Origin: Pararhodobacter zhoushanensis
GTDB lineage: Bacteria > Pseudomonadota > Alphaproteobacteria > Rhodobacterales > Rhodobacteraceae
Direction of reading: 5' to 3'
Length of the DNA stretch: 64,000 nucleotides
NCBI RefSeq assembly: GCF_025949695.1
Contig: NZ_JAPDFL010000001.1
Coordinates: forward strand, 457,001 to 521,000
This document shows positions 34,054 through 50,320 of this stretch, piece by piece; position 1 is the stretch's first letter; the number at the start of each line of letters is the position of its first letter. The notes beneath the pieces were generated by a model. It ran no database searches and was not told where the DNA came from. It was given only the letters and a program-made list of their open reading frames with translations. A program made the translations under genes and the position numbers.

Positions 34054-35175
34054 ATGCTTAAGATTGCAGTGTGCGGCGGCGGTGTCGGCGGTCTGTGTGC
34101 CAGCATTGCGCTGCACAAAATGGGCCATCAGGTCACGGTGTTTGAACAAGCACAGCAGTTCGCCCGCGTCGGCGCCGACATCAACCTGACCCCGAACGCC
34201 GTGCACGCGCTGGACCGGCTGGGCGCCAGCGAGGAGCTGCGGGTGAACGCCGCCCGCCCGACGCATCGCATCAGCCGGATCTGGGACACGGGCGCAGAAA
34301 CGTCGCGCATGCCCCTGAGCGAAGCCGCCGAGACCCGCTATGGTGGGCCGTCGCTGACCGTGCACCGCGCCGATCTGCTGAAGGCGCTTGAGGTGTTGCT
34401 GCCTGAAGGCGCGCTGCGGTTCGGGGCCAAGGTTGCCGAGGTCGGGCAGGACGCCGACGGCGCGTGGCTGGTGCTGGCTGACGGCACCACGCACCGCGCG
34501 GATGTGGTGATCGGGGCCGATGGCATCCATTCCCCCGTGCGCACCGCCGTCTTTGGCGCTGATTCGCCGCAGTTCACCGGGCTGGTGTCATGGCGCGCGG
34601 TTTTCCCGCGCGAACGTGGCGGTGATCTGCCGAACCTCGATGCGTTCACCAAATGGTGGGGGCCGACCAGCGACCTGCAGATCGTCACCTTCCCGCTGAC
34701 CCGCGGTGAAGAGATCTTTGTCTTTGCCACCCACCGTCAGGACGACTGGGCGGAAGAGGGCTGGACCCTGCCCGGCGACATCGACGAACTGCGCGCCCAT
34801 TACGCCGATTTCCACCCCGAGGCCCGCGCGCTGCTGGCGGCCTGCGACAGCGCCACGCGCTCGGCCCTGCATGTGCGCGAACCGATGGCGCACTGGTCGC
34901 AGGGCCACATCACCCTGCTGGGCGACGCGGCGCACCCGATGGTGCCGTTCATGGCGCAAGGGGCCTGCATGGCGATCGAGGATGCGGTGGTGCTGGCGCG
35001 CGCGCTGGACGGCGTCGATGCGGCCGGTGTGCCCGCCGCACTGACCCGGTATGAAGAGGCGCGCATCCCGCGCACCTCGGAAATCCAGCGCTCGTCTCTG
35101 GCGAATGAGTGGCTCAAGACTCAGGGCAATGCCGACTGGGTCTATGGCTATCAGGCGTGGACCGCCCCGCTTTAA
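34054..35175 (+). CDS. FAD-dependent aromatic-ring monooxygenase (NicC/salicylate hydroxylase-like)
   Basis: Group A flavoprotein hydroxylase of 373 residues. The FAD dinucleotide motif is AVCGGGVGGLCASIALHKMG at the N terminus, the DG motif is DVVIGADGIHSPVR near residue 158, and the GD motif is LLGDAAHPMVPFMAQGACM near residue 288. The KWWG and WVYGYQ segments recall 6-hydroxynicotinate 3-monooxygenase (NicC) and related decarboxylating hydroxylases. ATG 34054 has GGGGAA upstream; an earlier in-frame ATG lies inside the operator. It meets the IclR gene tail to tail (4-bp overlap). The substrate is probably the aromatic or heteroaromatic acid handled by the neighbouring operon. Confidence 0.85.
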   Translation: MLKIAVCGGGVGGLCASIALHKMGHQVTVFEQAQQFARVGADINLTPNAVHALDRLGASEELRVNAARPTHRISRIWDTGAETSRMPLSEAAETRYGGPSLTVHRADLLKALEVLLPEGALRFGAKVAEVGQDADGAWLVLADGTTHRADVVIGADGIHSPVRTAVFGADSPQFTGLVSWRAVFPRERGGDLPNLDAFTKWWGPTSDLQIVTFPLTRGEEIFVFATHRQDDWAEEGWTLPGDIDELRAHYADFHPEARALLAACDSATRSALHVREPMAHWSQGHITLLGDAAHPMVPFMAQGACMAIEDAVVLARALDGVDAAGVPAALTRYEEARIPRTSEIQRSSLANEWLKTQGNADWVYGYQAWTAPL

Positions 35176-35972
35176 GGCTGTTCGGTGAACCCCAGCGCCG
35201 CCGAGATTTCGGCGGCGGCTGCCTTGACCGCCTCTTCGATGCGCAGGGCCAGTGGCGTGTCGGGGGTGAACTGCGTCTCTGGCCCCGTCACGTTGATCGA
35301 CGCCACGGTACGCCCCTGATGATCGAACACCGGCGCGGCGCAGGATCCGATCCCGCGCTCGAAATTGCCCGAACTCCACGCCACCCCACGCGCCCGGTCG
35401 GCAGTAATCTGGGCGGTCAACGCTTCCAGCGAGCTTGCGGTCTTTTCGGTGAAGGTTTTCAGCGCGTCACCGACATAGAGCCGCTCGATATCGCCCTCGG
35501 GCAGCCAGCCCAGCAGCACGCGGCCGATGGTGGTGGCATGCGCAGGCAGGCGCGAGCCTTCACGGACATTGCTGATCAGGTGCGAGTTGGGTGTTTCGCG
35601 CAGCAGGTAGATCACCTCGGTCCCGTCCAGAATGCCCAGATGCGAGGACAGCTCGAGCTGTGCCACCAGCCGCGACATCACCGGACGCGCCACCTTGAGC
35701 ACGTCGCGCGATTTGAGCGCATCGGCGGCCAGCGCGATCATGCCGGGGCCCAGTTGCCAGCTCAGCCCGTCATCCATCGACTCGATCATCCGTTCGGCTT
35801 CGAGCGTGTGCAAAAGGCGGATCAGCGTCGTGCGGTTGATGCCCAGTGCGCGCGAGGTGGCGCTGGCATTGTTGCACCGGCCCCCCGCCGCGATATGGCG
35901 CAGCAACGTAAAGGCCCTGTGAACCGGCGGCACAGAATAGTTGGTGCCGTCGCCGTCGTTCTCTTCCGTCAC
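35172..35972 (-). CDS. IclR-family transcriptional regulator
   Basis: A 266-residue regulator with an N-terminal winged helix (about 18-75, ATSRALGINRTTLIRLLHTL) and a C-terminal effector domain (about 90-255). The latter carries the IclR signature around RGVAWSSGNFERGIGSCAAPVFDHQG. IclR proteins commonly control aromatic catabolism in response to a pathway acid. It is divergent from the operon starting at 36190 and convergent with the monooxygenase gene. The shared 26-bp sites in front of both targets are its likely operators. Confidence 0.9.
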   Translation of the reverse strand: MTEENDGDGTNYSVPPVHRAFTLLRHIAAGGRCNNASATSRALGINRTTLIRLLHTLEAERMIESMDDGLSWQLGPGMIALAADALKSRDVLKVARPVMSRLVAQLELSSHLGILDGTEVIYLLRETPNSHLISNVREGSRLPAHATTIGRVLLGWLPEGDIERLYVGDALKTFTEKTASSLEALTAQITADRARGVAWSSGNFERGIGSCAAPVFDHQGRTVASINVTGPETQFTPDTPLALRIEEAVKAAAAEISAALGFTEQP

Positions 35973-36090
35973 GTCATGCCCCCCAAAGCTGCCTGCTCAA
36001 TAGCGGTGCCTTCGGTCTGCCGCAATTCTCGCCCCGCTGCTCAGGAACCGCGCACTGCGTGTTCCGCCAGTGGCTGCACGAAAATTCTGC

Positions 36091-36143
36091 TTGACCGAAT
36101 CCCTCGTTGCTCCAATAATGAACAGCATGTTATAATATGAACA
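36091..36143 (+). promoter_or_regulatory. Promoter and operator of the catabolic operon
   Basis: TTGACC (36091-36096), a 17-bp spacer and AATAAT (36114-36119) form a good sigma-70-type promoter. The 26-bp site 36118-36143 overlaps the -10 and start point and holds two ATGAACA direct repeats 19 bp apart. The same arrangement stands before the monooxygenase gene. Confidence 0.65.
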
Positions 36144-36189
36144 GTTGTGCAAGCCTGATCTGCTCGACACGCACCAAAGGAGCCACCCC

Positions 36190-36492
36190 ATGGACGCCTT
36201 CAAAGACCGCCTCTCGCAGCGTGCCCGCGATACGAGCCGTCCGGCGCTGGCCCACCAATCGCTGGGCCGCCCGCTGACCGATGCCGAGACCGCACTGTCG
36301 CAGGCGCTGATGGCGATCATGGGCGAGCGGGTGCATGACTTCGCCGAGGTCGCCAAGGAACTGGCCGCCCGTGGCGTGACCGCGCCGATCTCGGGGCGCA
36401 CCGATTGGGATCTGGCGCTGCTGACAGACGAGCTGACGGCACTGAACAAGGATCTCGACACCGCCTACGCGGAGGCCGGTTATGGCGCTTGA
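36190..36492 (+). CDS. Small protein at the head of the catabolic operon
   Basis: A 100-residue soluble, mainly helical protein (DAFKDRLSQRARDTS at the start, then AETALSQALMAIMGE and FAEVAKELAARGVTAP). The middle resembles the short recombinase-like helix-turn-helix proteins seen beside Rieske oxygenase genes; I am not certain of this. No Cys, metal motif or membrane segment is seen. ATG 36190 has AAAGGAG upstream. It overlaps the ABC ATPase gene by 11 bp, so it is translated as part of the operon. A regulatory or accessory role is possible. Confidence 0.6.
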   Translation: MDAFKDRLSQRARDTSRPALAHQSLGRPLTDAETALSQALMAIMGERVHDFAEVAKELAARGVTAPISGRTDWDLALLTDELTALNKDLDTAYAEAGYGA

Positions 36493-37252
36493 GTTCAAAG
36501 GCGTCTCGAAAAGCTTCAACCTGGACACGGGTCAGGAGCTGACGGCGGTTCGCGACATCAATTTCAAGGTCGAAAAGGGCGAGTTCGTCTCGGTCGTCGG
36601 CCCTTCGGGCTGCGGCAAATCGACGATCCTGAGCATGACGGCAGGGCTGTACCAGCCGACCACCGGCGAGGTCCGGGTTTCAGGCGAACTGGTCACCAAG
36701 CCGAACCCGCATGTCGGCTTCATGCTGCAAAAAGACCTGCTGCTGCCGTGGCGCACGATCATCAAGAACGTCGAATTCGGGCTGGAATCGCGCGGCGTTC
36801 CCCGCGCCCAGCGCCGCGAACGCGCCATGGCGGAACTGGAGCGCTGCCATCTGGCGGGCTTCGAGAACCACTACCCCTATCAGCTGTCCGGTGGCATGCG
36901 CCAACGCGCGGCCCTGGCCCGCACGCTGGCGATTGATCCCGACATCATCCTGCTGGACGAGCCGTTCTCGGCACTGGATGCACAGACCAAGCTGCTGATC
37001 CAGAACTCGTTCGCCGAGACGATCATGGAAGCGGGCATCACCACGCTGCTGATCACCCATGATCTGAGCGAAGCGGTGATCATGTCGGACCGCGTTCTGG
37101 TGCTGTCCGAGCGCCCCGGCACGGTGATGTGCGAAATGCCCATCGACCTGCCCGACCGCGCGCATCCGCTCAAGCGCCGTCAGCTGCCCGAAGTCCACCA
37201 GCACGCCGCCGAAATCTTCACCTTGCTGCGCCTCGACCAGCGCGCGGCCTGA
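36482..37252 (+). CDS. ABC transporter ATPase (SsuB/TauB/NrtD type)
   Basis: ATPase of 256 residues for the nitrate/sulfonate/taurine-type importer. Walker A is GPSGCGKST near residue 40, signature LSGGMRQRAAL near 138, Walker B LLDEPFSALD near 157, and switch His in LLITHDLSEA. It starts inside the end of the preceding gene. With the binding protein and permease that follow, it forms a complete importer for a small organic acid. In catabolic clusters such importers often take up phthalate-, pyrimidine- or sulfonate-like compounds. Confidence 0.93.
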   Translation: MALEFKGVSKSFNLDTGQELTAVRDINFKVEKGEFVSVVGPSGCGKSTILSMTAGLYQPTTGEVRVSGELVTKPNPHVGFMLQKDLLLPWRTIIKNVEFGLESRGVPRAQRRERAMAELERCHLAGFENHYPYQLSGGMRQRAALARTLAIDPDIILLDEPFSALDAQTKLLIQNSFAETIMEAGITTLLITHDLSEAVIMSDRVLVLSERPGTVMCEMPIDLPDRAHPLKRRQLPEVHQHAAEIFTLLRLDQRAA

Positions 37253-37290
37253 TCCACGACGACCATAATAAAACCAACGGGAGTATCTCT

Positions 37291-38268
37291 ATGAAGACGC
37301 GCATTCTGGGCCTTGCCGCCGCTGCCGGCCTTGCCTTTTCCAGCCTCTCGGCCATGGCGCAAACGCCGCTGACCTATCTGTTCCCGGCCCCTGACTTCCT
37401 GCCCGCCTTCGCCCCGTTCCAGCTGGCATTGGGCAAAGGGTATTACGCCGAAGCCGGTCTGGACGTGACCTTCCGCATCGGTCAGGGCGGCGCTGACGTG
37501 GCGACGCAGGTTGCTGTCGGCAACGCCCAGCTGGGCGGCGGCATGGGCGATACCGCGCTGATCGTGCGCGCCAACGGGCTGGAAGTCCGCGGCGTGGCGC
37601 TGCTGGGTGGTCAGGGCATCACCCAGATCGCATGGCGCAATGACCGCGACATCAACGGGATCGCCGATCTGGAAGGCCGCTCGATTGGCGTCATCGGCTT
37701 TCAGGACACCACCTTCTACAACCTGCTGGCTGTGCTCGCCTCGGAAGAGATCGGCCGTTCGGACGTCGATATTCAGGCGCTTGGACCGGGCGGCATCATC
37801 CAGAACATGATCGGCGGCTCGATTGACGCGATGTCGGGCGTGCCCGAATGGATCGTCGCTGTTGAAGACGCAGGCGTGCCGCTGACCGTGACCCCCGCGC
37901 GCGATTACTTCGCCTCGCAGGCACAGGCGATCATTGCCTCGGACGCCTATATCGCTGAAAACCCCGAAGCCGTGCGCGGGTTCGTTCAGGCGACGCTGCG
38001 CGCCATCGACGACATCATCGCTGACCCGGCACAGGCCGCGCAGGACTATGTCGGCTTCCTGCCGCGCCACGCTGAAAACGTCGCCCAGATCGAGCGGATC
38101 ATGCGGATGTATGTCTCCAACGTCTATGCGCAGGATGGCGACCGTCCGATCGGTGCGTTTGACCCCGCACAGCTGCAAACCGCCGAAGACTTCTATGTCG
38201 CCAACGAACTGGTGAACGACGTCGTGCCGGTTGAAGACGCCTACACCAACGACTTCGTCACCGAATAA
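37291..38268 (+). CDS. ABC transporter substrate-binding protein (NMT1/SsuA type)
   Basis: Periplasmic binding protein of 325 residues with a signal peptide (about 1-23, ending SAMAQ). The mature part shows the NMT1/THI5-SsuA pattern: QLALGKGYYAEAGLDVTF, then VGNAQLGGGMGDTAL and LEGRSIGVIGFQDTTFYNLL. CGGGAG precedes ATG 37291. It follows the ATPase by 38 bp. Ligand unknown; presumably the compound degraded by the cluster. Confidence 0.9.
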   Translation: MKTRILGLAAAAGLAFSSLSAMAQTPLTYLFPAPDFLPAFAPFQLALGKGYYAEAGLDVTFRIGQGGADVATQVAVGNAQLGGGMGDTALIVRANGLEVRGVALLGGQGITQIAWRNDRDINGIADLEGRSIGVIGFQDTTFYNLLAVLASEEIGRSDVDIQALGPGGIIQNMIGGSIDAMSGVPEWIVAVEDAGVPLTVTPARDYFASQAQAIIASDAYIAENPEAVRGFVQATLRAIDDIIADPAQAAQDYVGFLPRHAENVAQIERIMRMYVSNVYAQDGDRPIGAFDPAQLQTAEDFYVANELVNDVVPVEDAYTNDFVTE

Positions 38269-38367
38269 CCGCCGCCTGACACTCTCAACCCTTCCGGTCG
38301 CTGCACCGTCACCCCTTTGGGGCGGCGACCGGAGCCTTCTTGCCCAGCCACAAGGACCAGACCTCTC

Positions 38368-39135
38368 ATGAGCCTTGCCAAAAGCCATACCTTAGCCGGG
38401 ATCGTGATTCTGGGCGTTGTCCTGCTGATCTGGCAATTCCTGCCGCCCGCGATGGATGTGCCCAAATTCATCATCCCCACGCCGATGGACATGCTCAAGG
38501 AACTGGGCCGGATGTACCGGCGCGAGGATCTGATCACCAACACCCTGTCCACCGCGCTGTATACCACGCTGGGCTTTGCCATCGGCTCGGCGCTGGGGGC
38601 CATCATCGGCTACCTGCTGGGCATGTCCGAATTCTGGGAGCGCGTGCTCTCGCCCTATATCCTGGCACTGCAGATCGCGCCGAAAGTCGCCTTCGCCCCG
38701 CTGTTCATCATGTGGTTCGGCTATAACGCCACGCCCAAGCTGCTGGTCACCGTGCTGATCGTCTTCTTCCCGGTGCTGGTGAACGTGCTGGCCGCGATGA
38801 AGACCGTCGACCGCGACATGGTGAACCTTGCCCGCGCCTATTCGCTCAGCCGCTGGGAGATTTTCCTGAAGGTCGAATTCCCCTCGACCCTGCCCAACCT
38901 GATGGCCGGTCTGCGCATCGCCTCGACGCTGGCCGTGATCGGCGTGACCGTGGGCGAGCTGGTCGGCGGCAACACCGGACTTGGGTTCCTGATCAGCTAC
39001 GGCGGCGGGCAGGCGAATGCCGCGATGGTGTTCAATGCCATCGTGCTGCTGACGCTCATCGGCATCGTGCTCTATTCGGTGCTCGCCTGGGCTGAGAAGC
39101 GCCTGCTCCATTACATCCCGAAAAAAGAACACTGA
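38368..39135 (+). CDS. ABC transporter permease (SsuC/TauC type)
   Basis: Inner-membrane permease of 255 residues with six hydrophobic segments. The EAA-loop region is visible as NLARAYSLSRWEIFLKVEFP followed by STLPNLMAGLRIA near residues 155-187. AAGGA precedes ATG 38368. It completes the importer. The genes on either side are spaced by about 50-100 bp, so the operon is looser here than further downstream. Confidence 0.92.
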   Translation: MSLAKSHTLAGIVILGVVLLIWQFLPPAMDVPKFIIPTPMDMLKELGRMYRREDLITNTLSTALYTTLGFAIGSALGAIIGYLLGMSEFWERVLSPYILALQIAPKVAFAPLFIMWFGYNATPKLLVTVLIVFFPVLVNVLAAMKTVDRDMVNLARAYSLSRWEIFLKVEFPSTLPNLMAGLRIASTLAVIGVTVGELVGGNTGLGFLISYGGGQANAAMVFNAIVLLTLIGIVLYSVLAWAEKRLLHYIPKKEH

Positions 39136-39186: not shown

Positions 39187-39756
39187 ATGAGCACCGCTCC
39201 GATGAAATTTCCCTCGATCGAACCCGATGACGTGGTCATCCCCGAGGGCAAGACGCTGGACAGCTGGATCGAAAGCCGCGTCGCGCGCTATGCGTCGCGC
39301 ACGCTGGACTGGGACGCGCTGAAGTTTCAGGCCGATTTCGACCCCAAATACCGCCGCGCGCAGATGCGCTATGTCGGCACCGGCGCGACCGGCGTGTCCG
39401 ATGATGAGAACGTCGTGCCGGCCGGGCATTTCACCTTCTCGACGATGGTTCTGCCCGCTGGCTGCGAAGGCCCGCTGCACATCCACCGCGACGCCGAGGA
39501 AATCTTCTTTGTCCTCAAGGGCCACTCGATCCGCCTGTTCATCGAACACAAGGGCGAGATGGTCGAAACCGTCCTGACCGAGCGTGACCTCTTGTCGGTG
39601 CCGCCGGGCGTCTACCGCGGTCTGCGCAACGAGGGTATCGAAGAGGCCCTGCTCTGCGTGATGATCGGCAACCCCAAGCCGGTGACCCCGACCTATCCGC
39701 CCGAGCACCCGGTCTCCAAGATCCCCCGGCCCAAGGGCTCCAAAGCCGCCGGCTGA
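39187..39756 (+). CDS. Cupin-domain protein
   Basis: A 189-residue single-cupin protein. The metal-site motif is GPLHIHRDAEEIFFVLKG near residues 97-114, with the second half around LSVPPGVYRGLRNEG near 138. No signal peptide. It could be a ring-modifying dioxygenase, isomerase or ligand-binding protein; the family does not fix the reaction. CAGGAG precedes the start. A perfect 13-bp palindrome separates it from the Rieske gene. Confidence 0.85.
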   Translation: MSTAPMKFPSIEPDDVVIPEGKTLDSWIESRVARYASRTLDWDALKFQADFDPKYRRAQMRYVGTGATGVSDDENVVPAGHFTFSTMVLPAGCEGPLHIHRDAEEIFFVLKGHSIRLFIEHKGEMVETVLTERDLLSVPPGVYRGLRNEGIEEALLCVMIGNPKPVTPTYPPEHPVSKIPRPKGSKAAG

Positions 39757-39820: not shown

Positions 39821-40867
39821 ATGACCGCTCCTGCCATCGACAAGAAAGCCCTGATCGAGGATCGCGTGAACACTGGCCTGCTGGGCCAATGGTATCCCGT
39901 CGCCAAATCGGTCGAGATCAAGACGACCAAGCCCTACGGTACCAAACTGCTGGGCCAGAAGCTGGTCCTGTGGCGCAAGGCGGACGGGTCAATCGCTTGT
40001 GTCGAGGATTTCTGCCCGCACCGGGGCGCGCCGCTGTCGTATGGCGAGATCCACGAGGGCAACATCGGCTGCCGCTATCACGGCGTTGTCGTCAACGGTG
40101 ACGGTGTCGTCGTCCGCGTTCCCGCCATGCCCGAATGCGCGATGGAGGGCCGCAAGGCGCTGAAGAACTTCCACGTCACCGAGCATTCGGATGCCGTTTT
40201 CGTCTACATCCCCAGCCTGACCCAGCCCGAGCCGCCTGAACTGGTGATGCCGCCGGAACTGATGGGCGGTGCCTGGACCGGGTTCCTCTGTACCAGCGTG
40301 TGGGAAACCAACTACCGCTACGCGCTCGACAACCTCGCCGACCCGATGCACGGCTGCTACCTGCATTCCGAAAGCTTCACCCTGGCCTTTGGCTCCAAGC
40401 AAGACCTGATGAAGCTCGACAAGACCGACAACGGTTTCCACGTCACCCGCGTGGGACAGGTCGGCGACAATTTCGACTGGGCGGAATTCGCCGTCTTCCC
40501 CGGCAACATGTACTGTTTCCTCGACATCCCCTACCCGCCCGCTGCTGGCCCCGGTGGCAACATGCGCATCGTCGGCTTCACCACCCCGGTGGATGAGACG
40601 ACCTGCAAGGTGTTCTTCTGGCGTCTGCGCAAGGTCGAAGGGCTGGCGCGCGAGGCGTGGCGCTTCCTCTACCGCACCAAGCTGGAGGCGAACCACTGGC
40701 ATGTGCTGGAACAGGATCGCGTCATGCTGGAAGGCATGCCCGACGACGCCCGCAAGCGCGAGATGCTCTACCAGCACGATCTCGGTGTGTCGCGTATCCG
40801 TCAGGTTCTGACCCGCGCGGCCAAAGAGCAGATCGAGGCTGAACTGAAGCAGGTGGCCGCAGAATGA
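39821..40867 (+). CDS. Rieske non-heme iron oxygenase, catalytic subunit
   Basis: A 348-residue aromatic-ring oxygenase or demethylase component. The Rieske 2Fe-2S ligands are Cys65-x-His67 (FCPHRGAPL) and Cys84-x2-His87 (CRYHGVV). The mononuclear iron region ALDNLADPMHGCYLHSE has His177 and His182 with the bridging Asp174. Length and motifs resemble phthalate 4,5-dioxygenase- and vanillate demethylase-type single-component oxygenases. No separate small subunit or reductase/ferredoxin of the usual kinds is present; the FprA-like reductase and flavodoxin downstream may supply electrons. Coupled (ATGA) to the next gene. Confidence 0.92.
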   Translation: MTAPAIDKKALIEDRVNTGLLGQWYPVAKSVEIKTTKPYGTKLLGQKLVLWRKADGSIACVEDFCPHRGAPLSYGEIHEGNIGCRYHGVVVNGDGVVVRVPAMPECAMEGRKALKNFHVTEHSDAVFVYIPSLTQPEPPELVMPPELMGGAWTGFLCTSVWETNYRYALDNLADPMHGCYLHSESFTLAFGSKQDLMKLDKTDNGFHVTRVGQVGDNFDWAEFAVFPGNMYCFLDIPYPPAAGPGGNMRIVGFTTPVDETTCKVFFWRLRKVEGLAREAWRFLYRTKLEANHWHVLEQDRVMLEGMPDDARKREMLYQHDLGVSRIRQVLTRAAKEQIEAELKQVAAE

Positions 40868-41604
40868 TGCTGTCCGGTCGCACCATCCTGATCACCGGCG
40901 CGGCGCGCGGTCTGGGCCGGGCGCTGGCGCAGGGCTGCGCGGCCGAGGGCGCGCGGCTGGTGCTGGCGGATATCGACGCCGAGGGCGTCGCCGCCGCTGC
41001 CGCCGAACTGGGCGCACGCGCCGTGACGGTGGATCTGGGCGATCCGGCCAGCATCTCGGCGCTGTCCGAGGATATCGCCGCGACCGAGGGCGAGTTGCAC
41101 GGGCTGGTCAACAACGGCGCGGTGGCGACCAATGTCGGCGGCATGGCGTTTGAGGATATCGAGCTGGAGCTGTGGGACCGCGTGCAGCGCGTCAATGTGC
41201 GCGGCACGTGGCTGATGACCCGCGCCTGTTCGGCAATGCTGCGCGCCTCAGGGTCGGGCCGGGTGGTCAACGTGGCCTCCGACACCGCCCTGTGGGGTGC
41301 GCCGCGTCTGCTGGCCTATACGGCCTCAAAAGGCGCGGTGATGGCAATGACCCGCTCGCTGGCACGCGAGATGGGGCCGGACCGCGTGGGCGTGACCTGC
41401 ATCGCGCCCGGCATCCTGACCACCGAGAGCACCGAATACGTCCCCGCCGCGCGCCATTCGCTGTATCAGGATGGCCGCGCCGTTCCCGGCCCGCAATCGG
41501 CGGCCGAAGTGACGGGCACCGTCGCCTTCCTGCTGTCCGAGGCCGCCCTGACGCTGACCGGACAAGTGATGCCGGTCAACAACGGCTACGTGTTCGTCAC
41601 ATGA
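40864..41604 (+). CDS. Short-chain dehydrogenase/reductase
   Basis: NAD(P)-dependent SDR of 246 residues with a complete active site: TGAARGLGRA cofactor motif, NNGA near residue 83, catalytic Ser139 and Tyr152-x3-Lys156 (AYTASKGAV). It could oxidise a dihydrodiol or alcohol made by the Rieske enzyme; this is inferred from position. Its first codons overlap the Rieske stop and its stop overlaps the hydrolase start, both ATGA. Confidence 0.9.
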   Translation: MMLSGRTILITGAARGLGRALAQGCAAEGARLVLADIDAEGVAAAAAELGARAVTVDLGDPASISALSEDIAATEGELHGLVNNGAVATNVGGMAFEDIELELWDRVQRVNVRGTWLMTRACSAMLRASGSGRVVNVASDTALWGAPRLLAYTASKGAVMAMTRSLAREMGPDRVGVTCIAPGILTTESTEYVPAARHSLYQDGRAVPGPQSAAEVTGTVAFLLSEAALTLTGQVMPVNNGYVFVT

Positions 41605-42410: not shown

Positions 42411-43321
42411 CCCAGGAAATCCGAGTAGGCGCGCTGCGTGGCCTCGTCATGCGCGCACCGGGCATCACCGCGACCAAGGATTTTTACGTGCAGAACTGGG
42501 GCCTTACGCTGGCCCATGAGGAACCTGGCGCGGTCTATTTCCGTGGCACCAGCGCCGAGCCGATCCTCTATGGCCTCAAGGACGGCCCGGTCTACGGCAT
42601 CGAATACATCCACTTCGCCATGGCCGACCGCGCCACCACCGACGCGCTTTATGCCCAACTGGTTGCGCAGGGTGAGGCCGTCGTGGGCGAACCCGCCGAG
42701 TTCGACGATTTCGCCGGCGGCTATGGGTTCGAGGTTCTGGACCCCGACAACCGCCGCCTGCGCCTGCGCACCGATACCGTCACACTGCCGCCGCAGGATC
42801 AATGGGCCCGCCCGCGCAAGGTCAGCCATGTGGTGCTGAACACCGCCAACATGGCGGATGTGCAGGACTGGTACTGCCGCGTGCTGGGCTTCCGCGTGTC
42901 AGATTACAGCGCCGATCAGATGGTGTTCATGCGCAGCGCCACGGATCACCATTCCATCGCGCTGGTGCAGGGGCATTACCCGTCGGTCAACCACGTGGCC
43001 TTCGAGCTGCCGACGATCAATGAATTCATGCGCTCCATCGGGCGGATGAAGGAGAAAGGCCTGATGGCCACCTGGGGGCCGGGCCGCCACGGGCCGGGGG
43101 ATAACCCGTTTGCCTATTACGTCTCGCCCACCGGCTTTGTGATCGAGTTCACCGCCGAGGTGCAGCAGATCGACGAGGCCACGCATGAGGCGCAGGTCTG
43201 GCCGCGCGATGTGCCCGAGAAGATGGACCAATGGATGACCGCCGGAGCCCCCACCGCCGCCCAGCGCGCGGTGATGCAGGGCCGCCCGGATCCGGGTTTC
43301 CCCGAGCTGAGGAAGAAATAA
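42407..43321 (+). CDS. Type I extradiol ring-cleavage dioxygenase (two-domain VOC protein)
   Basis: Two VOC/glyoxalase modules in 304 residues, like 2,3-dihydroxybiphenyl- and catechol-type dioxygenases. In the second module the iron ligands fit His141, His196 and Glu247. Active-site residues fit His182 (DHHSIAL), His228 (GRHGPGD) and Tyr238 (FAYYVSPTGF), the same set as in BphC. This strongly supports real ring cleavage rather than a passive VOC fold. The ring substrate is unknown. It is followed after 1 bp by an SDR gene. Confidence 0.9.
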   Translation: MTQEIRVGALRGLVMRAPGITATKDFYVQNWGLTLAHEEPGAVYFRGTSAEPILYGLKDGPVYGIEYIHFAMADRATTDALYAQLVAQGEAVVGEPAEFDDFAGGYGFEVLDPDNRRLRLRTDTVTLPPQDQWARPRKVSHVVLNTANMADVQDWYCRVLGFRVSDYSADQMVFMRSATDHHSIALVQGHYPSVNHVAFELPTINEFMRSIGRMKEKGLMATWGPGRHGPGDNPFAYYVSPTGFVIEFTAEVQQIDEATHEAQVWPRDVPEKMDQWMTAGAPTAAQRAVMQGRPDPGFPELRKK

Positions 43322-43322: not shown

Positions 43323-44111
43323 ATGACCAAACCGTTTGAAGGACAGGTTGCCGTCGTCACCGGCGGTTCCTCAGGGATCGGGCTGGCCACGGTGCGGCTG
43401 CTGCTGGAACAGGGCGCGAAAGTGGCGTTCTGTGCGCGCGGCGAGGGGCGTCTGGCCGATGTCGCCGCCGTGCTGGAACGCGATTTCGGCGCGGACCGCA
43501 TCCTGTGGCAGGCGTTTTCGGTGCTGGATGCCGACGCGGTCAACGCCTTTGCGGCGGCGGTTCAGGCCAGATTCGGCACCTGCGATCTGTTGGTGAACAA
43601 CGCCGGTCAAGGCCGGGTCAGCACGTTCGAGACCACCTCGGATGACCACTGGCGCGCGGAATATGACCTCAAGCTGTTCAGCCAGATCAACCCGACCCGC
43701 GCCTTTCTGCCGATGCTCAAGGCGTCGAACGGGGCCATCGTCGCGGTCAACTCGCTGCTCGCTTACCAGCCTGAGAAACACATGGTCTGCACGGCGTCCG
43801 CCCGCGCCGGGGTGCAGAGCCTGCTGAAATCGCTGAGCATCGAATTCGCCCCGCATGTGCGCGTCAACTCGGTGCTGATCGGGCTGATCGGCTCGGGCCA
43901 ATGGACCCGCCGCTTTGCCGAGCGCCCCGACCAATCCGTCAGCCGCGAGGTCTGGTACGCCGATCTCGCGCGCAACAAGGGCATCCCCTTGGGCCGCCTG
44001 GGCGACGCCAGCGAAGCCGCTGCCGCCATCGCTTTCCTCGGCTCTCGGGCCGCCAGTTATATCACCGGGGCCCAGCTTGAAGTCTCGGGCGGCCTGTCGC
44101 GCCATATTTGA
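43323..44111 (+). CDS. Atypical SDR lacking the catalytic Tyr/Lys
   Basis: A 262-residue SDR with an intact cofactor motif (VTGGSSGIGLATV), NNAG near residue 92 and Ser144 (AVNSLLA). At the catalytic Y-x3-K position the sequence reads Thr157-A-S-A-Arg161 (CTASARAGV). The Rossmann fold is intact but the usual proton-relay Tyr is absent. Related atypical SDRs with a similar SARAG-type motif exist in aromatic clusters. It may use another residue, or act as a dehydratase, tautomerase or non-redox enzyme. Confidence 0.85.
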   Translation: MTKPFEGQVAVVTGGSSGIGLATVRLLLEQGAKVAFCARGEGRLADVAAVLERDFGADRILWQAFSVLDADAVNAFAAAVQARFGTCDLLVNNAGQGRVSTFETTSDDHWRAEYDLKLFSQINPTRAFLPMLKASNGAIVAVNSLLAYQPEKHMVCTASARAGVQSLLKSLSIEFAPHVRVNSVLIGLIGSGQWTRRFAERPDQSVSREVWYADLARNKGIPLGRLGDASEAAAAIAFLGSRAASYITGAQLEVSGGLSRHI

Positions 44112-44129
44112 GTACCAAGGATCATGGAC

Positions 44130-45803
44130 ATGAAACTCGAACCCATTGCCCAGACGGAAACCGTTGGCGACTTCATCGCGCGCTATCTGGCCGAGATTGG
44201 CGTGACCACGATGTTCGGCGTGATCTCGATTCACAACATGCCAATTCTGGACGCGGTCGCGCGGCAGGGCGTCATCCGCTTTGTGCCAGCGCGCGGTGAG
44301 TCCGGTGCGATGAGCATGGCCGACGCCTGGGCGCGGGTGTCGGGCGAGATGGGCGTGGTGATCACCTCGACCGGGACCGCTGCGGGCAACGCCGCTGGTG
44401 CGCAGGTTGAGGCGCTGACGGCAGGCACGCCGCTGTTGCACATCACCGCGACCGTCGATCTGGGCTTTGCCGACCGCGACCGCGCGCCGATCCATGACGT
44501 GCCGCGCCAGCCCGATATGCTCAAAGGGATCTCCAAGGCCTATTACCGCCTGTGGAGCGCGGATTCCGCCATCGGCACCCTGACCGCTGCGGTTTCGGCG
44601 GCGATCAGCGCGCCCACCGGCCCGGTGACGCTGGAAATCCCGGTCGATGTGCAGCGCGCCAAGGCCGCCGGGGCCACCCGCATCTTCAAGCCGCAGCCGC
44701 AGCGCCCCCAAGCCAGCGACGACGCCGTGGCCGCACTGGCCGCCCTGCTGATCGAGGCCAAGCGCCCGATCCTGTGGCTGGGCGGCGGCGCCTGTCACGC
44801 CAGCGCCGAGGCGACCGAACTGGTGCGCCGGGGCTGCGCCGTGGTCACCTCGACCAACGGGCGCGCCACGGTATCCGAGCAGAACCCGGCCAATCTGGGT
44901 GCTTTCAACATGACGCCCGAAGCGCAGGCGCTCTATGCCTCGTCCGATCTGATGATCGTCGTCGGCTCGCGCCTGCGCGGCAATGAGACGCTGAATAACG
45001 CGATGCGCTTGCCGCGCCCGCTGGCGCAGATCGACGCCGAGGCATCACAAGGCGGTCGCAACTACCCGGTCGAGCTGTTCGTCCACGGCGATTCCGCCGA
45101 CACGCTGCGCCGCCTGCTGGCGCTGCTGCCTGAGAAACTGGACGTCGATCCGCAACTGGGCTTTGACGTCGCCACCGCCCGCGCCACGGCTGAGGGCCGC
45201 CTGCGCGCGCAGATGGGGCCGTATCAGGTGGTCGCGGACGCGCTGCTGGAACGTGTCGCACCGGGTCGTCATGCGTGGGTGCGCGACGTGACGATTTCGA
45301 ACTCGACCTTCGGCAACCGCTACGTCGGCTTTGCCGAACCGCGCCACGGCGTTCACGCGCTGGGTGGCGGCATCGGTCAGGGCGTGGCGATGGGCGTCGG
45401 GGCCGCGCTGGCCAGCGATGGGCCCAAGGCGATCACGCTTCTGGGCGACGGCGGCACGCAGCTGGGCATCGCCGAGATGATCACCGCCGTGCAGGAAAAC
45501 GCGCCGGTGGTGTTCTTGCTGATGAACGATCAGGCGTATGGCGTGATCAAGAACATCCAGGACGCGCAATACGACAGCCGCTATCACTATTCGGCGCTGC
45601 AAACGCCTGATTTCAAAGCGCATTGCGCCTCGATCAACCTGCCGCATACGCTCGTCTCCGATGTAAACGACTTCGCTGCCGCACTGGATGCCGCCCTTGC
45701 TGCCCCCGGCCCGCGCCTGATCGAGGTGGACATGATCGCGATTGGCCCGTTTGGCGAGACTTTCTCAGGCCCGCCCGCAGGCGCTGCCGGTAACAAGGTC
45801 TGA
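44130..45803 (+). CDS. Thiamine-diphosphate-dependent enzyme (acetolactate synthase/benzoylformate decarboxylase family)
   Basis: A 557-residue ThDP enzyme. The activating Glu is in PARGESGAMSMADAWAR near residue 55. The C-terminal ThDP/Mg motif is LLGDGGTQLGIAEM...LLMNDQAYG (G-D-G to N). The central domain is GG-rich (LWLGGGACHA). It probably decarboxylates a 2-oxo acid from ring cleavage, or joins two carbonyl units; the downstream aldehyde dehydrogenase would fit a decarboxylase. AAGG is nine bases before ATG 44130; an ATG two codons earlier is too close to it. Confidence 0.85.
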   Translation: MKLEPIAQTETVGDFIARYLAEIGVTTMFGVISIHNMPILDAVARQGVIRFVPARGESGAMSMADAWARVSGEMGVVITSTGTAAGNAAGAQVEALTAGTPLLHITATVDLGFADRDRAPIHDVPRQPDMLKGISKAYYRLWSADSAIGTLTAAVSAAISAPTGPVTLEIPVDVQRAKAAGATRIFKPQPQRPQASDDAVAALAALLIEAKRPILWLGGGACHASAEATELVRRGCAVVTSTNGRATVSEQNPANLGAFNMTPEAQALYASSDLMIVVGSRLRGNETLNNAMRLPRPLAQIDAEASQGGRNYPVELFVHGDSADTLRRLLALLPEKLDVDPQLGFDVATARATAEGRLRAQMGPYQVVADALLERVAPGRHAWVRDVTISNSTFGNRYVGFAEPRHGVHALGGGIGQGVAMGVGAALASDGPKAITLLGDGGTQLGIAEMITAVQENAPVVFLLMNDQAYGVIKNIQDAQYDSRYHYSALQTPDFKAHCASINLPHTLVSDVNDFAAALDAALAAPGPRLIEVDMIAIGPFGETFSGPPAGAAGNKV

Positions 45804-45807: not shown

Positions 45808-46599
45808 ATGCATCTGGGTCTGATCGGATACGGCAACATCACCCGCGCGCTGCTGGACGTGCTGGCGCGTGAGGGGGCGATGCCCGCGCGCCTCACCGTC
45901 CTGCTGCGCCCCGCACAGGCTGAAGCAGCGCGCGCGGCGGGGGTTGAGGTGGTCACCGACACCGACGCCCTGCTGGCCGCGTGCCCCGATCTGATCGTCG
46001 AATGCGCCGGGCATTCGGCAGTGGCGGGGACTGTGGTGCCGGCGCTCAAGGCCGGGATCGAGTGCGTTGTCGTGTCGATTGGCGCGCTGGCGGATGCCGA
46101 TCTGCACGACACGGTGCGTGCGGCGGCCAAGACCGGGCACACGCGCATCGTGCTGCCTGCCGGCGCGATTGGCGGGGTGGATCTGTTGGCGGCGCTGAAA
46201 CCCTCGGGGATCAGTTCGGTCGTCTATACCTCGCGCAAGCCGCCGCTGGCGTGGAAGGGCACGCCCGCCGAGGCGTTGCTTGATCTGCCCGCGCTGACTG
46301 AACCGGCGACCTTCTTCACCGGCACCGCGCGCGAGGCGGCGCTGCGCTACCCCAAGAACGCCAATGTCGCCGCCACGCTGGCGCTGGCGGGTCTGGGGTT
46401 TGAAGCGACGCAGGTGCAGATGGTGGCCGACCCCACGGTAGGCCAGAACATCCACGAATACCGCGTCACCTCAGGGGCGGCGGATTACGCGATACGGATC
46501 GAGGGCAAGCCCTCGCCCGACAACCCCAAGACCTCGCTCGCCACGGTGTATTCGGTGGCGCGCGAGGTGATGAACCGGCTGAACGAGGTGGCGATATGA
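45808..46599 (+). CDS. Aspartate dehydrogenase-like oxidoreductase (NadX family)
   Basis: A 263-residue NAD(P) enzyme with a Rossmann N terminus (LGLIGYGNITRALLDVL). The family motifs PAGAIGGVDLLAAL, RYPKNANVAATLALAG and ADPTVGQNIHEY are all seen. Characterised homologues convert L-aspartate to iminoaspartate, or act as related dehydrogenases. Here it is in a catabolic operon, not beside nadA/nadC, so the physiological substrate may be an amino or imino acid from ring breakdown. It overlaps the aldehyde dehydrogenase gene by 4 bp. Confidence 0.85.
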   Translation: MHLGLIGYGNITRALLDVLAREGAMPARLTVLLRPAQAEAARAAGVEVVTDTDALLAACPDLIVECAGHSAVAGTVVPALKAGIECVVVSIGALADADLHDTVRAAAKTGHTRIVLPAGAIGGVDLLAALKPSGISSVVYTSRKPPLAWKGTPAEALLDLPALTEPATFFTGTAREAALRYPKNANVAATLALAGLGFEATQVQMVADPTVGQNIHEYRVTSGAADYAIRIEGKPSPDNPKTSLATVYSVAREVMNRLNEVAI

Positions 46600-48086
46600 C
46601 CCATGATTTGCCCGACGGGCGGCTGTTTATCGGCGGCGAATGGGAAACCGGCACCGGGGCCGAGATCACCTCGATCTTTCCCGCCGATGGTTCGGTCAAC
46701 CGCGTGCTCAAAGGGGCCAGCCGTGCGGATGGTGAGCGGGCGATTGCGCGGGCGCTCAAGGCGCAGGCGGACCCGGCGTGGCGCGGCCTGAAACCGCATG
46801 AGCGCGCGCGGTATCTGCACCGGATCGCTGACGGCATTGACGCCAATGCCCAGCGCATCGCGTTCATCCAGACCCGCGATACCGGCAAGACCCTGCGCGA
46901 AACCTCGGCGCTGGTGGCCAGCGCGGCGGCGACGTTCCGCTACATGGCGGCAGCGTTAGAGACGCTTGACGACAGCCTGACCAGCCCGCGCGGCGATTAC
47001 CTGACGATGTCGGTGCATGAACCGCTGGGTCTGGTCGCCGCGATCACGCCGTGGAATTCGCCCATCGCGTCGGATGCGCAAAAGGTCGCCCCGGCGCTGG
47101 CTGCGGGCAATGCGGTGCTGCTGAAACCCGCCAGCTGGTCGCCGCTGGTGTCGCTGGAACTGGCGCGGATTGTCGAGGAGGCGGGCCTGCCCAAGGGCCT
47201 GTTCTCGGTCCTGCCCGGCGCGGGGCGTGAGATCGGCAATCTGCTGGTCGAACATCCCGCGATCGCCAAGGTCAGCTTCACCGGCGGCACCTCGACCGGC
47301 CGCACCCTGGCCCGGCAGGCCGCTGAAAAGCTGATGCCGGTGTCGCTGGAGCTGGGCGGCAAATCGCCCACCATCGTTTTTGCGGATGCCGATCAGGAGC
47401 TGGCCGTGGCCGGGATCCTGTTCGGGGTGTTCTCGTCTTCGGGCCAGAGCTGTATCGCGGGCTCACGCCTGTTCGTGCAGCGGGCGATCTATGACCAGTT
47501 CGTCACCCGGCTGGTCGCCGCGACCAAGGCGCTGGTCGTTGGCGATCCGCTGGACCCGGCGACTCAGGTCGCGCCGTTGGTGCATCCTGACCACCGCTCT
47601 GCCGTCGCTGCGCATGTCGCGCAGGCGGTGGCAGACGGGGCGACGGTGCTCTGCGGCGGCTTTGCGCCCGAGGGCGGGATTTACGATGCGGGCAGCTACT
47701 ACATGCCCACGATCCTGTCCAATGTGACCAACACCGACCGCATCTGCCGCGAGGAAGTGTTCGGCCCCGTGCTGGTCGTCCTGCCCTTTGACGAGGAGGC
47801 GGACGTGATCGCACAGGGCAATGACAATGATTATGGGCTTGCCTGCGGCCTCTGGACGCGCGATTTCCCCCGCGCGTACCGCGTCGCGCGGGCGATCACC
47901 ACGGGGACGGTCTGGATCAACACCTACAAGCAATTCTCGATCTCGACGCCCTTTGGCGGGGAAAAGGATGCTGGAATGGGGCGCGAAAAGGGACGCGAGG
48001 GGATCCGCGCCTATATGGCGCAAAAGTCGCTGTATGTGGATTTGACGGGCCGCCCGCACCCCTGGGCACGCCTGCAGGAGGGCTGA
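46596..48086 (+). CDS. Aldehyde dehydrogenase
   Basis: NAD(P)-dependent aldehyde dehydrogenase of 496 residues. The cofactor site has PWNSPI and LLKPASWSPL, the general-base Glu is in SLELGGKSPTI, and the nucleophile Cys is in SSSGQSCIAGSR. The C-terminal PFGGEKDAGMGREKG is also typical. It could oxidise the semialdehyde or aldehyde left by the ThDP enzyme or by ring cleavage. The reductase gene follows 1 bp after the stop. Confidence 0.93.
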   Translation: MTHDLPDGRLFIGGEWETGTGAEITSIFPADGSVNRVLKGASRADGERAIARALKAQADPAWRGLKPHERARYLHRIADGIDANAQRIAFIQTRDTGKTLRETSALVASAAATFRYMAAALETLDDSLTSPRGDYLTMSVHEPLGLVAAITPWNSPIASDAQKVAPALAAGNAVLLKPASWSPLVSLELARIVEEAGLPKGLFSVLPGAGREIGNLLVEHPAIAKVSFTGGTSTGRTLARQAAEKLMPVSLELGGKSPTIVFADADQELAVAGILFGVFSSSGQSCIAGSRLFVQRAIYDQFVTRLVAATKALVVGDPLDPATQVAPLVHPDHRSAVAAHVAQAVADGATVLCGGFAPEGGIYDAGSYYMPTILSNVTNTDRICREEVFGPVLVVLPFDEEADVIAQGNDNDYGLACGLWTRDFPRAYRVARAITTGTVWINTYKQFSISTPFGGEKDAGMGREKGREGIRAYMAQKSLYVDLTGRPHPWARLQEG

Positions 48087-48087
48087 G

Positions 48088-49278
48088 ATGGTGTCGATTG
48101 CAATCCTTGGGACCGGCCCGTCGGGCTGCTTTACCGCGCAGGCGCTGGTCAAGGCGCTGCCCGACGCGCGCATCGACATGATCGACGCGCTGCCGGTTCC
48201 CTATGGGTTGATCCGCTACGGCGTGGCGGCGGACCATCAGGGCACCAAGGCAGTGATCCGCCAGTTCGAGCGGCTGTTCGAACGCAGCGATGTGCGGTTT
48301 TTCGGCAATGTCAGGGTCGGATCCGACATCGCGCTGGATGACCTGACCGGGATGTATGACGCCGTGGTCATGGCTTTTGGCCTGCGCACGGACCGCAGCC
48401 TTGGCATTCCGGGTGAGGGGCTGGCCGGGGTCTATGGCTCGGGTCAGGTGACCGGCGCGTGGAACGATATGCCGGGCGTGGCGCCTGCGCAGATCGGCAA
48501 GCGGGTGGTGGTGATCGGCAACGGCAATGTCGCCGTCGATCTGATCCGCGTGCTGGCCAAGGGGCCCGAGGAATTCCACGGTTCCGACCTGTCGCAGGCC
48601 CATACGCAGGCGCTGATGGCGGCGGGGGTTGAGCGGATCGACGTTGTGGGCCGCTCGCCCGCTGATCAGGCCAAGTTCGACCCGGTGATGCTGCGCGAAC
48701 TGGGGCGGCTGACGCAGGCCCGCATCTCGGTTCAGGGTGCCCAGGGTGAGGGCAAGCTGATCGAGGCGCTGCAAGGCATCGACGGCCACGCGCCCGAGGG
48801 TGCGACGCGCGAAATCGCCTTTCACTTCGGCTGGACGCCTGAGGCGCTGGAGGGCACCGCGCACGTCACCGCCGCACGCTTCAAGCGCGCAGCCGAGCAC
48901 CTTACCCTGCCCTGCGATACCGTGCTCACCGCCATCGGTTTCACCGGCGACACGCCCGCCACCGACGACGCGGGCGCGGTCAGCCCCGGCCTTTACGCGA
49001 CCGGCTGGTATCGCCGGGGTCCGCGCGGCACGATCCCCGAAAACCGCGCCGATGCGCAACAGGTTGCCGCGCGCATCGTTGCTGACCTCGCCGGGACCGC
49101 AAGCACCAAAGCGGGCCGCGATGCGCTGACCGCGCGCATCCCGCAAGCCGTGACCTATGCGCAATGGCAGGCCATCGACGCCGCCGAGCGCGCCGCCTGC
49201 CCCGCCGACCGCTGCCGCCAAAAGCTGACCACCACCGAACAGATGCTGGCGACCGCGCGCCAGACAGGAGACCTCTGA
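48088..49278 (+). CDS. FprA/adrenodoxin-reductase-like ferredoxin(flavodoxin)-NADP+ reductase
   Basis: A 396-residue FAD enzyme. The FAD motif AILGTGPSGCFTAQALVKA is N-terminal, PVPYGLIRYGVAADHQGTK is the adrenodoxin-reductase signature, and VVVIGNGNVAVDLIRVLAK is the NADP site. The C-terminal ATGWYRRGPRGTIPENRAD closes the fold, and about 70 residues follow it. With the next gene's flavodoxin it forms an NADPH to flavodoxin to Rieske-oxygenase chain, in place of the usual oxygenase reductase. Its stop overlaps the flavodoxin ATG by 1 bp. Confidence 0.9.
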   Translation: MVSIAILGTGPSGCFTAQALVKALPDARIDMIDALPVPYGLIRYGVAADHQGTKAVIRQFERLFERSDVRFFGNVRVGSDIALDDLTGMYDAVVMAFGLRTDRSLGIPGEGLAGVYGSGQVTGAWNDMPGVAPAQIGKRVVVIGNGNVAVDLIRVLAKGPEEFHGSDLSQAHTQALMAAGVERIDVVGRSPADQAKFDPVMLRELGRLTQARISVQGAQGEGKLIEALQGIDGHAPEGATREIAFHFGWTPEALEGTAHVTAARFKRAAEHLTLPCDTVLTAIGFTGDTPATDDAGAVSPGLYATGWYRRGPRGTIPENRADAQQVAARIVADLAGTASTKAGRDALTARIPQAVTYAQWQAIDAAERAACPADRCRQKLTTTEQMLATARQTGDL

Positions 49279-49724
49279 TGCAGATCGCCCTTCTCTACGG
49301 CACCGAAACCGGCAATGCTGAAATGCTGGCCGAAGACATCGCCGCGCACCTGTCGGACCACGACGCCAGCGTGACCAACCTGTCCGACTTCCACCCCGCC
49401 GATTTCGACACGGACACGTTCTATATTGTCGTCTGCTCGACCTATGGCGACGGCGAACTGCCCGCCTCGGCCCAGCCCTTTGCCGCGAAGATGGAGGCGC
49501 AGAAGCCCTCGCTGGACGGTATCCGCTTTGCCGTCTTTGGCATGGGTGACAGCGAATACCCCGAAACCTTCAACTTCGGCGGCAAGCGGATGGAAGAGCT
49601 GCTGGCCGGTGCCGGGGCCGAACTGGTCGGCGAGCGCGTGACGCATAATGCCTCGGGCGATGACATGGCCGATGATCTGGCGCTGCCTTGGGTTGACGAC
49701 ATCATCGCCATGGCGGACGCGTGA
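49278..49724 (+). CDS. Flavodoxin-like FMN protein (MioC family)
   Basis: A 148-residue flavodoxin. The FMN phosphate loop YGTETGNAEML is at residues 7-17. The 50s/90s loops are visible as CSTYGDGELPASA and VFGMGDSEYPETFNFGGKRM. It is acidic overall. AGGAG lies upstream. Its position after an FprA-like reductase, in an operon with a Rieske oxygenase lacking its own ferredoxin partner, points to it being the electron carrier. TGATG overlaps link it to both neighbours. Confidence 0.9.
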   Translation: MQIALLYGTETGNAEMLAEDIAAHLSDHDASVTNLSDFHPADFDTDTFYIVVCSTYGDGELPASAQPFAAKMEAQKPSLDGIRFAVFGMGDSEYPETFNFGGKRMEELLAGAGAELVGERVTHNASGDDMADDLALPWVDDIIAMADA

Positions 49725-50320
49725 TGCAGGCCGCGCAGGTCCGCGACGCGCTGCAACGCCCGTGGAAACACGGCGAGGCGCTGGAGCTGGCAGGGCTGAC
49801 CCTGACCGAGCCGCTGGATCTGCGCGGGCTGACGCTGTGCGGCGTCGATTTCACCGGCGCGCGGTTCGAGAGCGGCGTACTGGCCGCAGGCGCGGTGTTC
49901 GAGGGGTTGAGCTGGTTCACCGGCGCGTCCTTTGCCAGCGCCGATTTCTCGGGCGCGCTGTTCACCAATGACGCGCGCTTTGACCGGGTGCGGATCGACG
50001 GCCCTGCCCGCTTCGATCACGCCGAGTTCCGCGGCACCGCCGGGTTCCGCGCTGCCCGCTTCACCCAAAGCGCCGACCTGTCCGCCGCGATCTGCTACGG
50101 CAATGCCGATCTGGCCGAGGCGCGGTTTGACGGCCCGACCACGCTGGTCGGAACCGAATTTCTGGGCGGGCTCTGGGCGCAAGACACACTTCTGCCCGCC
50201 GACGCTGACCTGTCAGGCACCGAGGTGCATGGCCGTCTCTGGCTGCGCGGCGCACGGATCGGCAATGCCAAACTGTCCGACCGCGCCTTTGGCATGGCGT
50301 TCGGCTACACGTTTTACTGA
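49724..50320 (+). CDS. Pentapeptide-repeat protein
   Basis: A 198-residue protein made largely of pentapeptide-like units A(D/N)LXX or equivalents (VDFTGARFESG, ASFASADFSGALF, FDHAEFRGT), which form a right-handed quadrilateral beta-helix. No signal peptide. It is the last gene coupled to the operon by a TGATG overlap. Function unknown; some relatives are DNA mimics or scaffolds. Confidence 0.8.
   Translation: MQAAQVRDALQRPWKHGEALELAGLTLTEPLDLRGLTLCGVDFTGARFESGVLAAGAVFEGLSWFTGASFASADFSGALFTNDARFDRVRIDGPARFDHAEFRGTAGFRAARFTQSADLSAAICYGNADLAEARFDGPTTLVGTEFLGGLWAQDTLLPADADLSGTEVHGRLWLRGARIGNAKLSDRAFGMAFGYTFY

Follow-up and report, generated by a model that had tools for sequence, protein, structure and literature searches.

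The aerobic degradation of kynurenate by pseudomonads, the 'quinoline' pathway, was reportedly described by Hayaishi and co-workers from 1961 onward. In this route, dihydroxylation and the action of a dihydrodiol dehydrogenase precede extradiol cleavage at 8,8a; the oxopropenyl chain is then reduced, the 2-oxo acid decarboxylated and the aldehyde oxidised. To our knowledge, kynurenate 7,8-hydroxylase, its dihydrodiol dehydrogenase and the 8,8a-dioxygenase are orphan EC entries; no gene assignment for the pathway was found in the open-access literature, subscription papers being outside the scope of the search, and a published assignment may exist. 7,8-Dihydroxykynurenate and 5-(3'-carboxy-3'-oxopropyl)-4,6-dihydroxypicolinate are named compounds, and a 2024 review, citing Horibata et al. 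1961, gives glutamate, alanine and organic acids as what pseudomonads metabolise kynurenate to. Here, an 18-gene locus of Pararhodobacter zhoushanensis was analysed, at positions 34054..50320 of a 64,000-nt stretch of DNA (the window). In predicted enzyme classes and their order it matches the kynurenate pathway; that pathway is known as biochemistry, whereas the locus adds an FprA-like reductase and a flavodoxin as partners of a Rieske oxygenase, and a FAD monooxygenase (FMO) entry. We propose that the locus is an operon of modular build which imports quinoline-2-carboxylic acids, kynurenate and xanthurenate being the likeliest, and degrades them completely by an aerobic route. With the substrate drawn purely from chemistry and gene content, we give this reading a probability of about 0.5.

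A preliminary description of the window had recorded an unrecognised catabolic locus, with its own importer and redox chain, for an aromatic or N-heteroaromatic acid. Such a locus was supported, and it probably serves the catabolism of an N-heteroaromatic acid. Family matches revealed no nic, vanillate or classical meta-cleavage set, hsp and phthalate loci not being part of a direct comparison. 'Unrecognised' stands for function, which seems unassigned, but not for sequence: the second of two short-chain dehydrogenases/reductases (SDR2) and the thiamin diphosphate (ThDP) enzyme are members, above cut-off, of the NCBI families PRK07062 and PRK07064, names that carry no function.

A search for the cluster in other genomes, as the description had suggested, was carried out. 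In a one-genome-per-species scan, 153 relatives of the ThDP gene were detected. The 93 loci compared (given L numbers) comprise the best 80 of these, 6 loci from plasmids and 7 more from the host's family. Counts of core genes and modules refer to the 75 loci of at least 19 kb unless stated, and presence was called by an identity cut-off against one query each, so that absence may reflect divergence or a gene outside the fetched flank. The core was found to recur, with SDR2 in 74 loci, an alpha/beta hydrolase (ABH) in 73, an extradiol dioxygenase in 70, an aldehyde dehydrogenase (ALDH) in 69, a cupin in 68 and an aspartate dehydrogenase homologue (NadX) in 67. SDR2 adjoined the ThDP gene in 72 of its 74 loci and accompanied it in 79 of the best 80 genome loci. 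The extradiol enzyme was of a beta type in 47 loci and of the window type in 23; the cupin was single in 58 and a bicupin of about 315 residues in 10. The core ranged from Rhodobacterales to Burkholderiales, in which it is widespread, and also to a Vibrio plasmid. The locus is therefore a conserved core with interchangeable entry and redox modules, and a fixed single-entry pathway was rejected because both kinds of module vary among loci. One catabolic locus, as first described, stood; the idea of one exact set did not, and the core with its modules allowed the more precise kynurenate/xanthurenate proposal. Genes, families, conserved core, module swaps and the insertion described below are all read from sequence.

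In the proposed pathway, the ATP-binding cassette (ABC) system would import a quinoline-2-carboxylic acid. With electrons from FprA and flavodoxin, the Rieske oxygenase would convert kynurenate to the 7,8-dihydrodiol and the first dehydrogenase/reductase (SDR1) would form 7,8-dihydroxykynurenate; the FMO would reach the same 7,8-diol by hydroxylating xanthurenate beside its 8-hydroxyl group. The extradiol enzyme would cleave the benzene ring between 8 and 8a, and 4,6-dihydroxypicolinate bearing a 3-carboxy-3-oxopropenyl chain would remain. SDR2 would then reduce the C=C of this chain, the ThDP enzyme would remove CO2 from the 2-oxo acid, and ALDH would oxidise the aldehyde to the 2-carboxyethyl acid, 5-(2-carboxyethyl)-4,6-dihydroxypicolinate. 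The pyridine ring would be opened by the cupin and the alpha/beta hydrolase; hydrolysis of the picolinate at C4-C5 and of the amide may give glutarate and iminosuccinate, and NadX would handle the nitrogen-bearing C4 half at the iminosuccinate level.

The kynurenate/xanthurenate reading is favoured by the core enzyme types, which are those needed downstream of a dihydroxylated bicyclic N-aromatic acid. A Rieske oxygenase with a canonical SDR1, the enzyme classes of the kynurenate dihydroxylation step, was present in the window and in 62 of the 75 loci, regiochemistry and substrate being presumed. Enone-reductase, 2-oxo acid decarboxylase and aldehyde dehydrogenase classes, with predicted activities, lay close together. 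The classical meta route needs a hydratase and an aldolase; a sequence of extradiol cleavage, a non-ketoreductase SDR, a ThDP enzyme and an ALDH differs from it and corresponds to the kynurenate route. NadX matched aspartate dehydrogenase above the curated cut-off, with NAD_binding_3 and Asp_DH_C domains, and its place in the core suggests nitrogen on a C4-dicarboxylate. The structure model of the importer's binding protein (predicted local distance difference test, pLDDT, 90.9) had thiamin-, formylaminopyrimidine- and pyridoxal phosphate (PLP)-binding proteins as its top folds, which was counted in favour of the proposal.

Active-site residues were examined in alignments. The full His/His/Glu and His/His/Tyr set noted earlier in the extradiol enzyme was conserved, with H141, H196, E247 and H182, H228, Y237 each at least 93% conserved among 79 aligned alpha- and beta-type sequences, window included; the active site demanded by the kynurenate pathway is thus intact. 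The division of these residues into metal ligands and catalytic residues would follow that in BphC and HPCD. SDR2 had rightly been called Tyr-less, and its Lys is gone too. In counts that take in the window sequence and many close relatives, SDR2 kept its Ser in 86 of 86 sequences with TxxxR in place of YxxxK (T157 in 85 of 86, R161 in 86 of 86); SDR1 kept S139, Y152 and K156 in 70 of 70; and the cupin kept H98, H100 and E104 in 70 of 70, its second-motif His being replaced by Y143-R144 in all 70. The loss of YxxxK in SDR2, while SDR1 keeps S-Y-K, fits C=C rather than carbonyl reduction by SDR2. The Rieske residues C65, H67, C84, H87, H177 and H182 and the hydrolase GHSLG motif, D214 and H245 were likewise conserved. 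A structure model of the cupin (mean pLDDT 69.8; best fold match QueD, TM-score 0.40) was not informative. The bicupin of about 315 residues replaces the 189-residue cupin in L009, L017, L018, L023, L040, L081, L082 (4285-5232), L083, L138 and L143, and in L081-L083 its gene adjoins a further IclR gene.

A Rieske oxygenase or FMO was found in 74 of the 75 loci. Sixty-two carried Rieske and SDR1 genes (25 of these also FMO), 9 had FMO alone and 2 had Rieske without SDR1; L011 carried SDR1 and FMO, its Rieske gene probably lying just past the end of the locus, where that of L010 lies. The most fitting role for the FMO is that of an alternative entry, hardly an obligatory lower step: of 64 Rieske loci, 25 had an FMO match and 39 did not, and FMO was present in 10 of the 11 without a Rieske match (Fisher p 5e-4 with L011 and L019 left out, a value that ignores kinship). 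A three-subunit molybdenum (Mo) hydroxylase adjoined L086, with Rieske entry, and L026, with FMO entry, the large subunits being 57% identical. Its relatives include quinoline 2-oxidoreductase and nicotinate dehydrogenase, and it would extend the range to quinaldate and 8-hydroxyquinaldate.

The exception to these entry types, L019, has a lone ThDP gene (67% identity) beside an IclR gene, with no other core gene found. On the Caballeronia plasmid pNK84, L086:12146-20593 holds a second, shortened cluster of ferredoxin, HTH_62, Rieske, ThDP, VOC and three-subunit Mo hydroxylase genes. The small HTH_62 protein was found in 43 of the 64 loci with a Rieske gene and in 2 of the 10 in which none was matched (also at L085:8710-9039 and L086:12462-12773); it may be an accessory protein that goes with the Rieske oxygenase, and not a recombinase.

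For the redox modules, window-type Rieske was defined as at least 57% identity and pairing was counted over all 93 loci. Of 17 window-type loci, 14 had both FprA and flavodoxin (L001, L002, L009, L017, L021, L024, L081-L083, L138-L140, L142 and L143); L003 had FprA where its contig ends, and L005 and L144 were cut short. None of the 17 had a VanB-type or ferredoxin partner. Among 58 loci with the other Rieske subtype, 45 had a VanB-type reductase, 2 had ferredoxin with ferredoxin reductase, in 11 no partner was found, and none had FprA or flavodoxin. The window oxygenase thus resembles VanA/VanB and class III systems in its VanA_C domain but differs in its partners, which in those systems' form occur here only with the other subtype; no Fer2 domain was present among the 18 proteins and L001 had no VanB match. 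The earlier FprA-like call was upheld, the best solved relative being FprA 1lqt (E 5.5e-54). In loci of at least 19 kb, the pentapeptide-repeat protein accompanied FprA in 12 of 13 (L017 lacking a match) and was found in none of 61 without FprA. On a quick ThDP tree without a mixture model and with long-branch warnings, Rieske required a minimum of 5 changes, FMO 10, the redox partner 4 and the cupin type 3, uncalled rows being dropped for the last two. The window-type Rieske subtype thus seems to have its electron supply in FprA, flavodoxin and, probably, the pentapeptide protein, which together form one module. No flavodoxin-fed Rieske system was found in the open-access literature, the scope of that search leaving out subscription papers; such chemistry would be unusual, and the FprA-flavodoxin partner, if real, would be a separate biochemical novelty.

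Taken at its fullest, and more tentatively, the proposal is that the cluster supplies the genes so far missing for the aerobic breakdown of kynurenate and xanthurenate. Two entry modules, exchangeable for each other, would lead to 7,8-dihydroxykynurenate; a Mo hydroxylase would optionally extend the range to quinaldate and 8-hydroxyquinaldate; and the window-type Rieske would be driven by a stand-alone flavodoxin and FprA-type reductase. If so, a pathway described in extracts since the 1960s would gain sequences for its kynurenate 7,8-hydroxylase, dihydrodiol dehydrogenase and 8,8a-dioxygenase. Bacteria of soil, marine and host-associated habitats could then be assessed for their ability to remove kynurenate and xanthurenate, both of them nitrogen-containing tryptophan products with biological activity.

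Several observations weigh against kynurenate and xanthurenate. Linkage to kynurenine-forming genes was looked for as support and discarded: tryptophan 2,3-dioxygenase and kynureninase were found in 0 of 93 cluster loci, while the same queries matched 20 of 20 and 18 of 20 control loci. Tryptophan 2,3-dioxygenase was present in only 16 of 29 cluster-bearing genomes searched and apparently on the cluster's own contig in 2 of 9 contigs checked (~126 kb and 1.67 Mb away); in the host genome it lies beside kynureninase (anthranilate route), far from the cluster. The pyridine-ring opening assigned to the cupin and the alpha/beta hydrolase comprises the weakest steps. Replacement of Rieske by FMO was represented by only 2 independent pairs on the tree, a kinship-limited comparison that was not significant. 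The Mo hydroxylase lay beside no more than 2 of the 93 loci, and among solved structures it is closest to 4-hydroxybenzoyl-CoA reductase; the binding-protein fold list also held taurine, sulfonate, nitrate, pyrroloquinoline quinone and bicarbonate binders lower down. Finally, P. aeruginosa PAO1 presumably carries part of a similar core, for which neighbourhood a locus-tag literature search returned no papers. A P. aeruginosa kynU mutant accumulates kynurenate, which would count against the proposal if the PAO1 cluster were complete.

Other substrates were weighed against these data. A non-nitrogen aromatic, such as a plant phenolic or fused ring, might be degraded by a variant meta route in which extradiol cleavage is followed by C-C hydrolysis by the ABH, reduction, ThDP-dependent decarboxylation and oxidation, with NadX recruited for another reduction. 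The hydrolase gene beside the extradiol gene would then be a classical meta-cleavage pair, as its distant relationship to PcaD and BphD-type hydrolases would allow, and the wide Burkholderiales spread would fit. We consider this unlikely, because the 2-hydroxypentadienoate hydratase and aldolase families of classical meta-cleavage loci are absent among the 18 proteins and a NadX above the curated aspartate dehydrogenase cut-off recurs in 67 of 75 loci.

Quite unlikely, too, is a pathway of this kind for a different N-heteroaromatic acid, such as a monocyclic hydroxypyridine carboxylate, in which the NicC-like FMO, the cupin and the alpha/beta hydrolase would form a lower route resembling nic. 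NicC (5eow, E 4.4e-76) is the best solved relative of the FMO, followed by tropone 2-monooxygenase, and the FMO alignment with NicC covers residues 3-369; hydrolase and dioxygenase-like cupin resemble the NicX/NicD logic, and a Mo hydroxylase lies beside two clusters. Nevertheless, two NicC histidines are N44 and F299 here, both conserved in this FMO group, no family of the NicX, NicF or NicE type was present among the 18 proteins, and an FMO missed in so many Rieske loci is hardly an obligatory lower step; enone reductase, ThDP decarboxylase and ALDH after an extradiol enzyme would also be left unexplained. Highly improbable is an aromatic acid conjugated to aspartate, which the hydrolase would free for oxidation by NadX while the rest degrades the aromatic part: NadX in the core would be accounted for, but no dedicated amidase family occurs among the 18 proteins, the hydrolase resembles enol-lactonases and esterases, and the Mo hydroxylase is unexplained.

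The gene families, strands and order in the preliminary description were confirmed for all 18 genes by open reading frames (ORFs) and Pfam, which backs each family assignment; NCBIfam gave no match for the HTH_62, cupin and pentapeptide proteins. Starts were corrected for NadX (45808), the HTH_62 protein (36190), the ABC permease (38368) and flavodoxin (49278), and NadX consequently does not overlap the ThDP gene. Most genes from Rieske onward had been said to overlap, which held for 6 of 10 junctions up to the pentapeptide gene, but the other four have gaps of 1, 12, 4 and 1 bp. All 18 genes are also present in L001, from Pararhodobacter zhoushanensis, at 94-100% identity; this recurrence, together with 13 further loci holding FprA, flavodoxin and window-type Rieske, indicates that the set is more than chance.

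Table 1. Features of the locus, in window coordinates
Feature	Position	Strand	Basis
tRNA-Leu (CAG), left border of insert	33776..33862	+	ARAGORN; adjoins rnd in two congeners
FMO, proposed xanthurenate (8-hydroxykynurenate) 7-hydroxylase	34054..35175	+	FAD_binding_3; putative role
IclR-family regulator	35172..35972	-	IclR_C E 4.9e-40; nearest NCBIfam PcaR/PcaU/PobR, under its cut-off
Predicted sigma70-like promoter (TTGACC, 18 bp, ATAATG) and inverted repeat around GAACA-n-CATGTT, proposed IclR operator	36091..36144	+	Conservation; putative function
Small HTH_62 (recombinase-like HTH) protein, often with Rieske gene	36190..36492	+	PF20552; co-occurrence
ABC importer ATPase	36482..37252	+	ABC_tran, taurine/nitrate-like
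NMT1/THI5-type substrate-binding protein	37291..38268	+	NMT1 E 1.6e-36; structure model
ABC importer permease	38368..39135	+	BPD_transp_1; start re-read from ORF
Cupin, proposed part in pyridine-ring opening	39187..39756	+	Cupin_2
Rieske oxygenase alpha subunit (VanA_C type), proposed kynurenate 7,8-dioxygenase	39821..40867	+	Rieske and VanA_C; putative substrate
SDR1, canonical S-Y-K, proposed 7,8-dihydrodiol dehydrogenase	40864..41604	+	Pfam/NCBIfam; conserved residues
ABH, GHSLG nucleophile motif, D214, H245	41601..42410	+	Abhydrolase_1; putative role (ring or C-C hydrolysis)
Type I extradiol dioxygenase, proposed 7,8-dihydroxykynurenate 8,8a-dioxygenase	42407..43321	+	Glyoxalase; best solved relative 3b59 E 1.5e-50
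SDR2 (PRK07062), TxxxR for YxxxK, proposed enone (C=C) reductase	43323..44111	+	NF005468 383 bits, cut-off 266
ThDP enzyme (PRK07064), proposed 2-oxo acid decarboxylase	44124..45803	+	NF005470 753 bits, cut-off 495
Aspartate dehydrogenase homologue (NadX), proposed for iminosuccinate/aspartate half	45808..46599	+	NF009827 260 bits, cut-off 226; TM1643/AspDH relatives
ALDH	46596..48086	+	Aldedh E 6e-160
FprA-like reductase, proposed first member of Rieske electron chain	48088..49278	+	FprA 1lqt E 5.5e-54; co-travels with window-type Rieske
Flavodoxin, proposed electron carrier to Rieske oxygenase	49278..49724	+	Flavodoxin_1; co-occurrence
Pentapeptide-repeat protein of FprA/flavodoxin module	49721..50320	+	Pentapeptide_3; co-occurrence with FprA

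The IclR regulator would control the main operon. Between its gene and that for HTH_62, the promoter and repeat form an island kept in L002, L003 and L024 although the flanking DNA has diverged, while the intergenic DNA of L001 is nearly identical to the window throughout. The GAACA-n-CATGTT repeat was not found in the remaining 170 of 174 loci searched.

The cluster has natural borders at the tRNA-Leu gene (ending at 33862) and rnd (starting at 50428). In two congeners (L150 and L151), an NDUFA9-like gene, tRNA-Leu and rnd follow in succession, the last two being 33 bp apart; this junction, empty in L150 and L151, is occupied in the window by 16.5 kb that includes the entire cluster. The remaining congener loci have rnd without that tRNA within the up to 1.5 kb fetched 5' of it, so the tRNA/rnd junction varies. 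In L002 and L024, which hold the nearest cluster genes after L001, the cluster is present and rnd was not in the fetched stretch. No att-site direct repeats involving the tRNA were found, nor any integrase among the 18 proteins by family search. Judged from these comparisons, the locus behaves as a horizontally moved insert. Of 198 genomes from the host's family, 8, counting that of the window, had a match above the cut-off of the ThDP enzyme family, and plasmids of Paracoccus, Nitratireductor, Pseudosulfitobacter, Vibrio nigripulchritudo and Caballeronia carry all or part of the cluster, which points to a patchy, moving trait.

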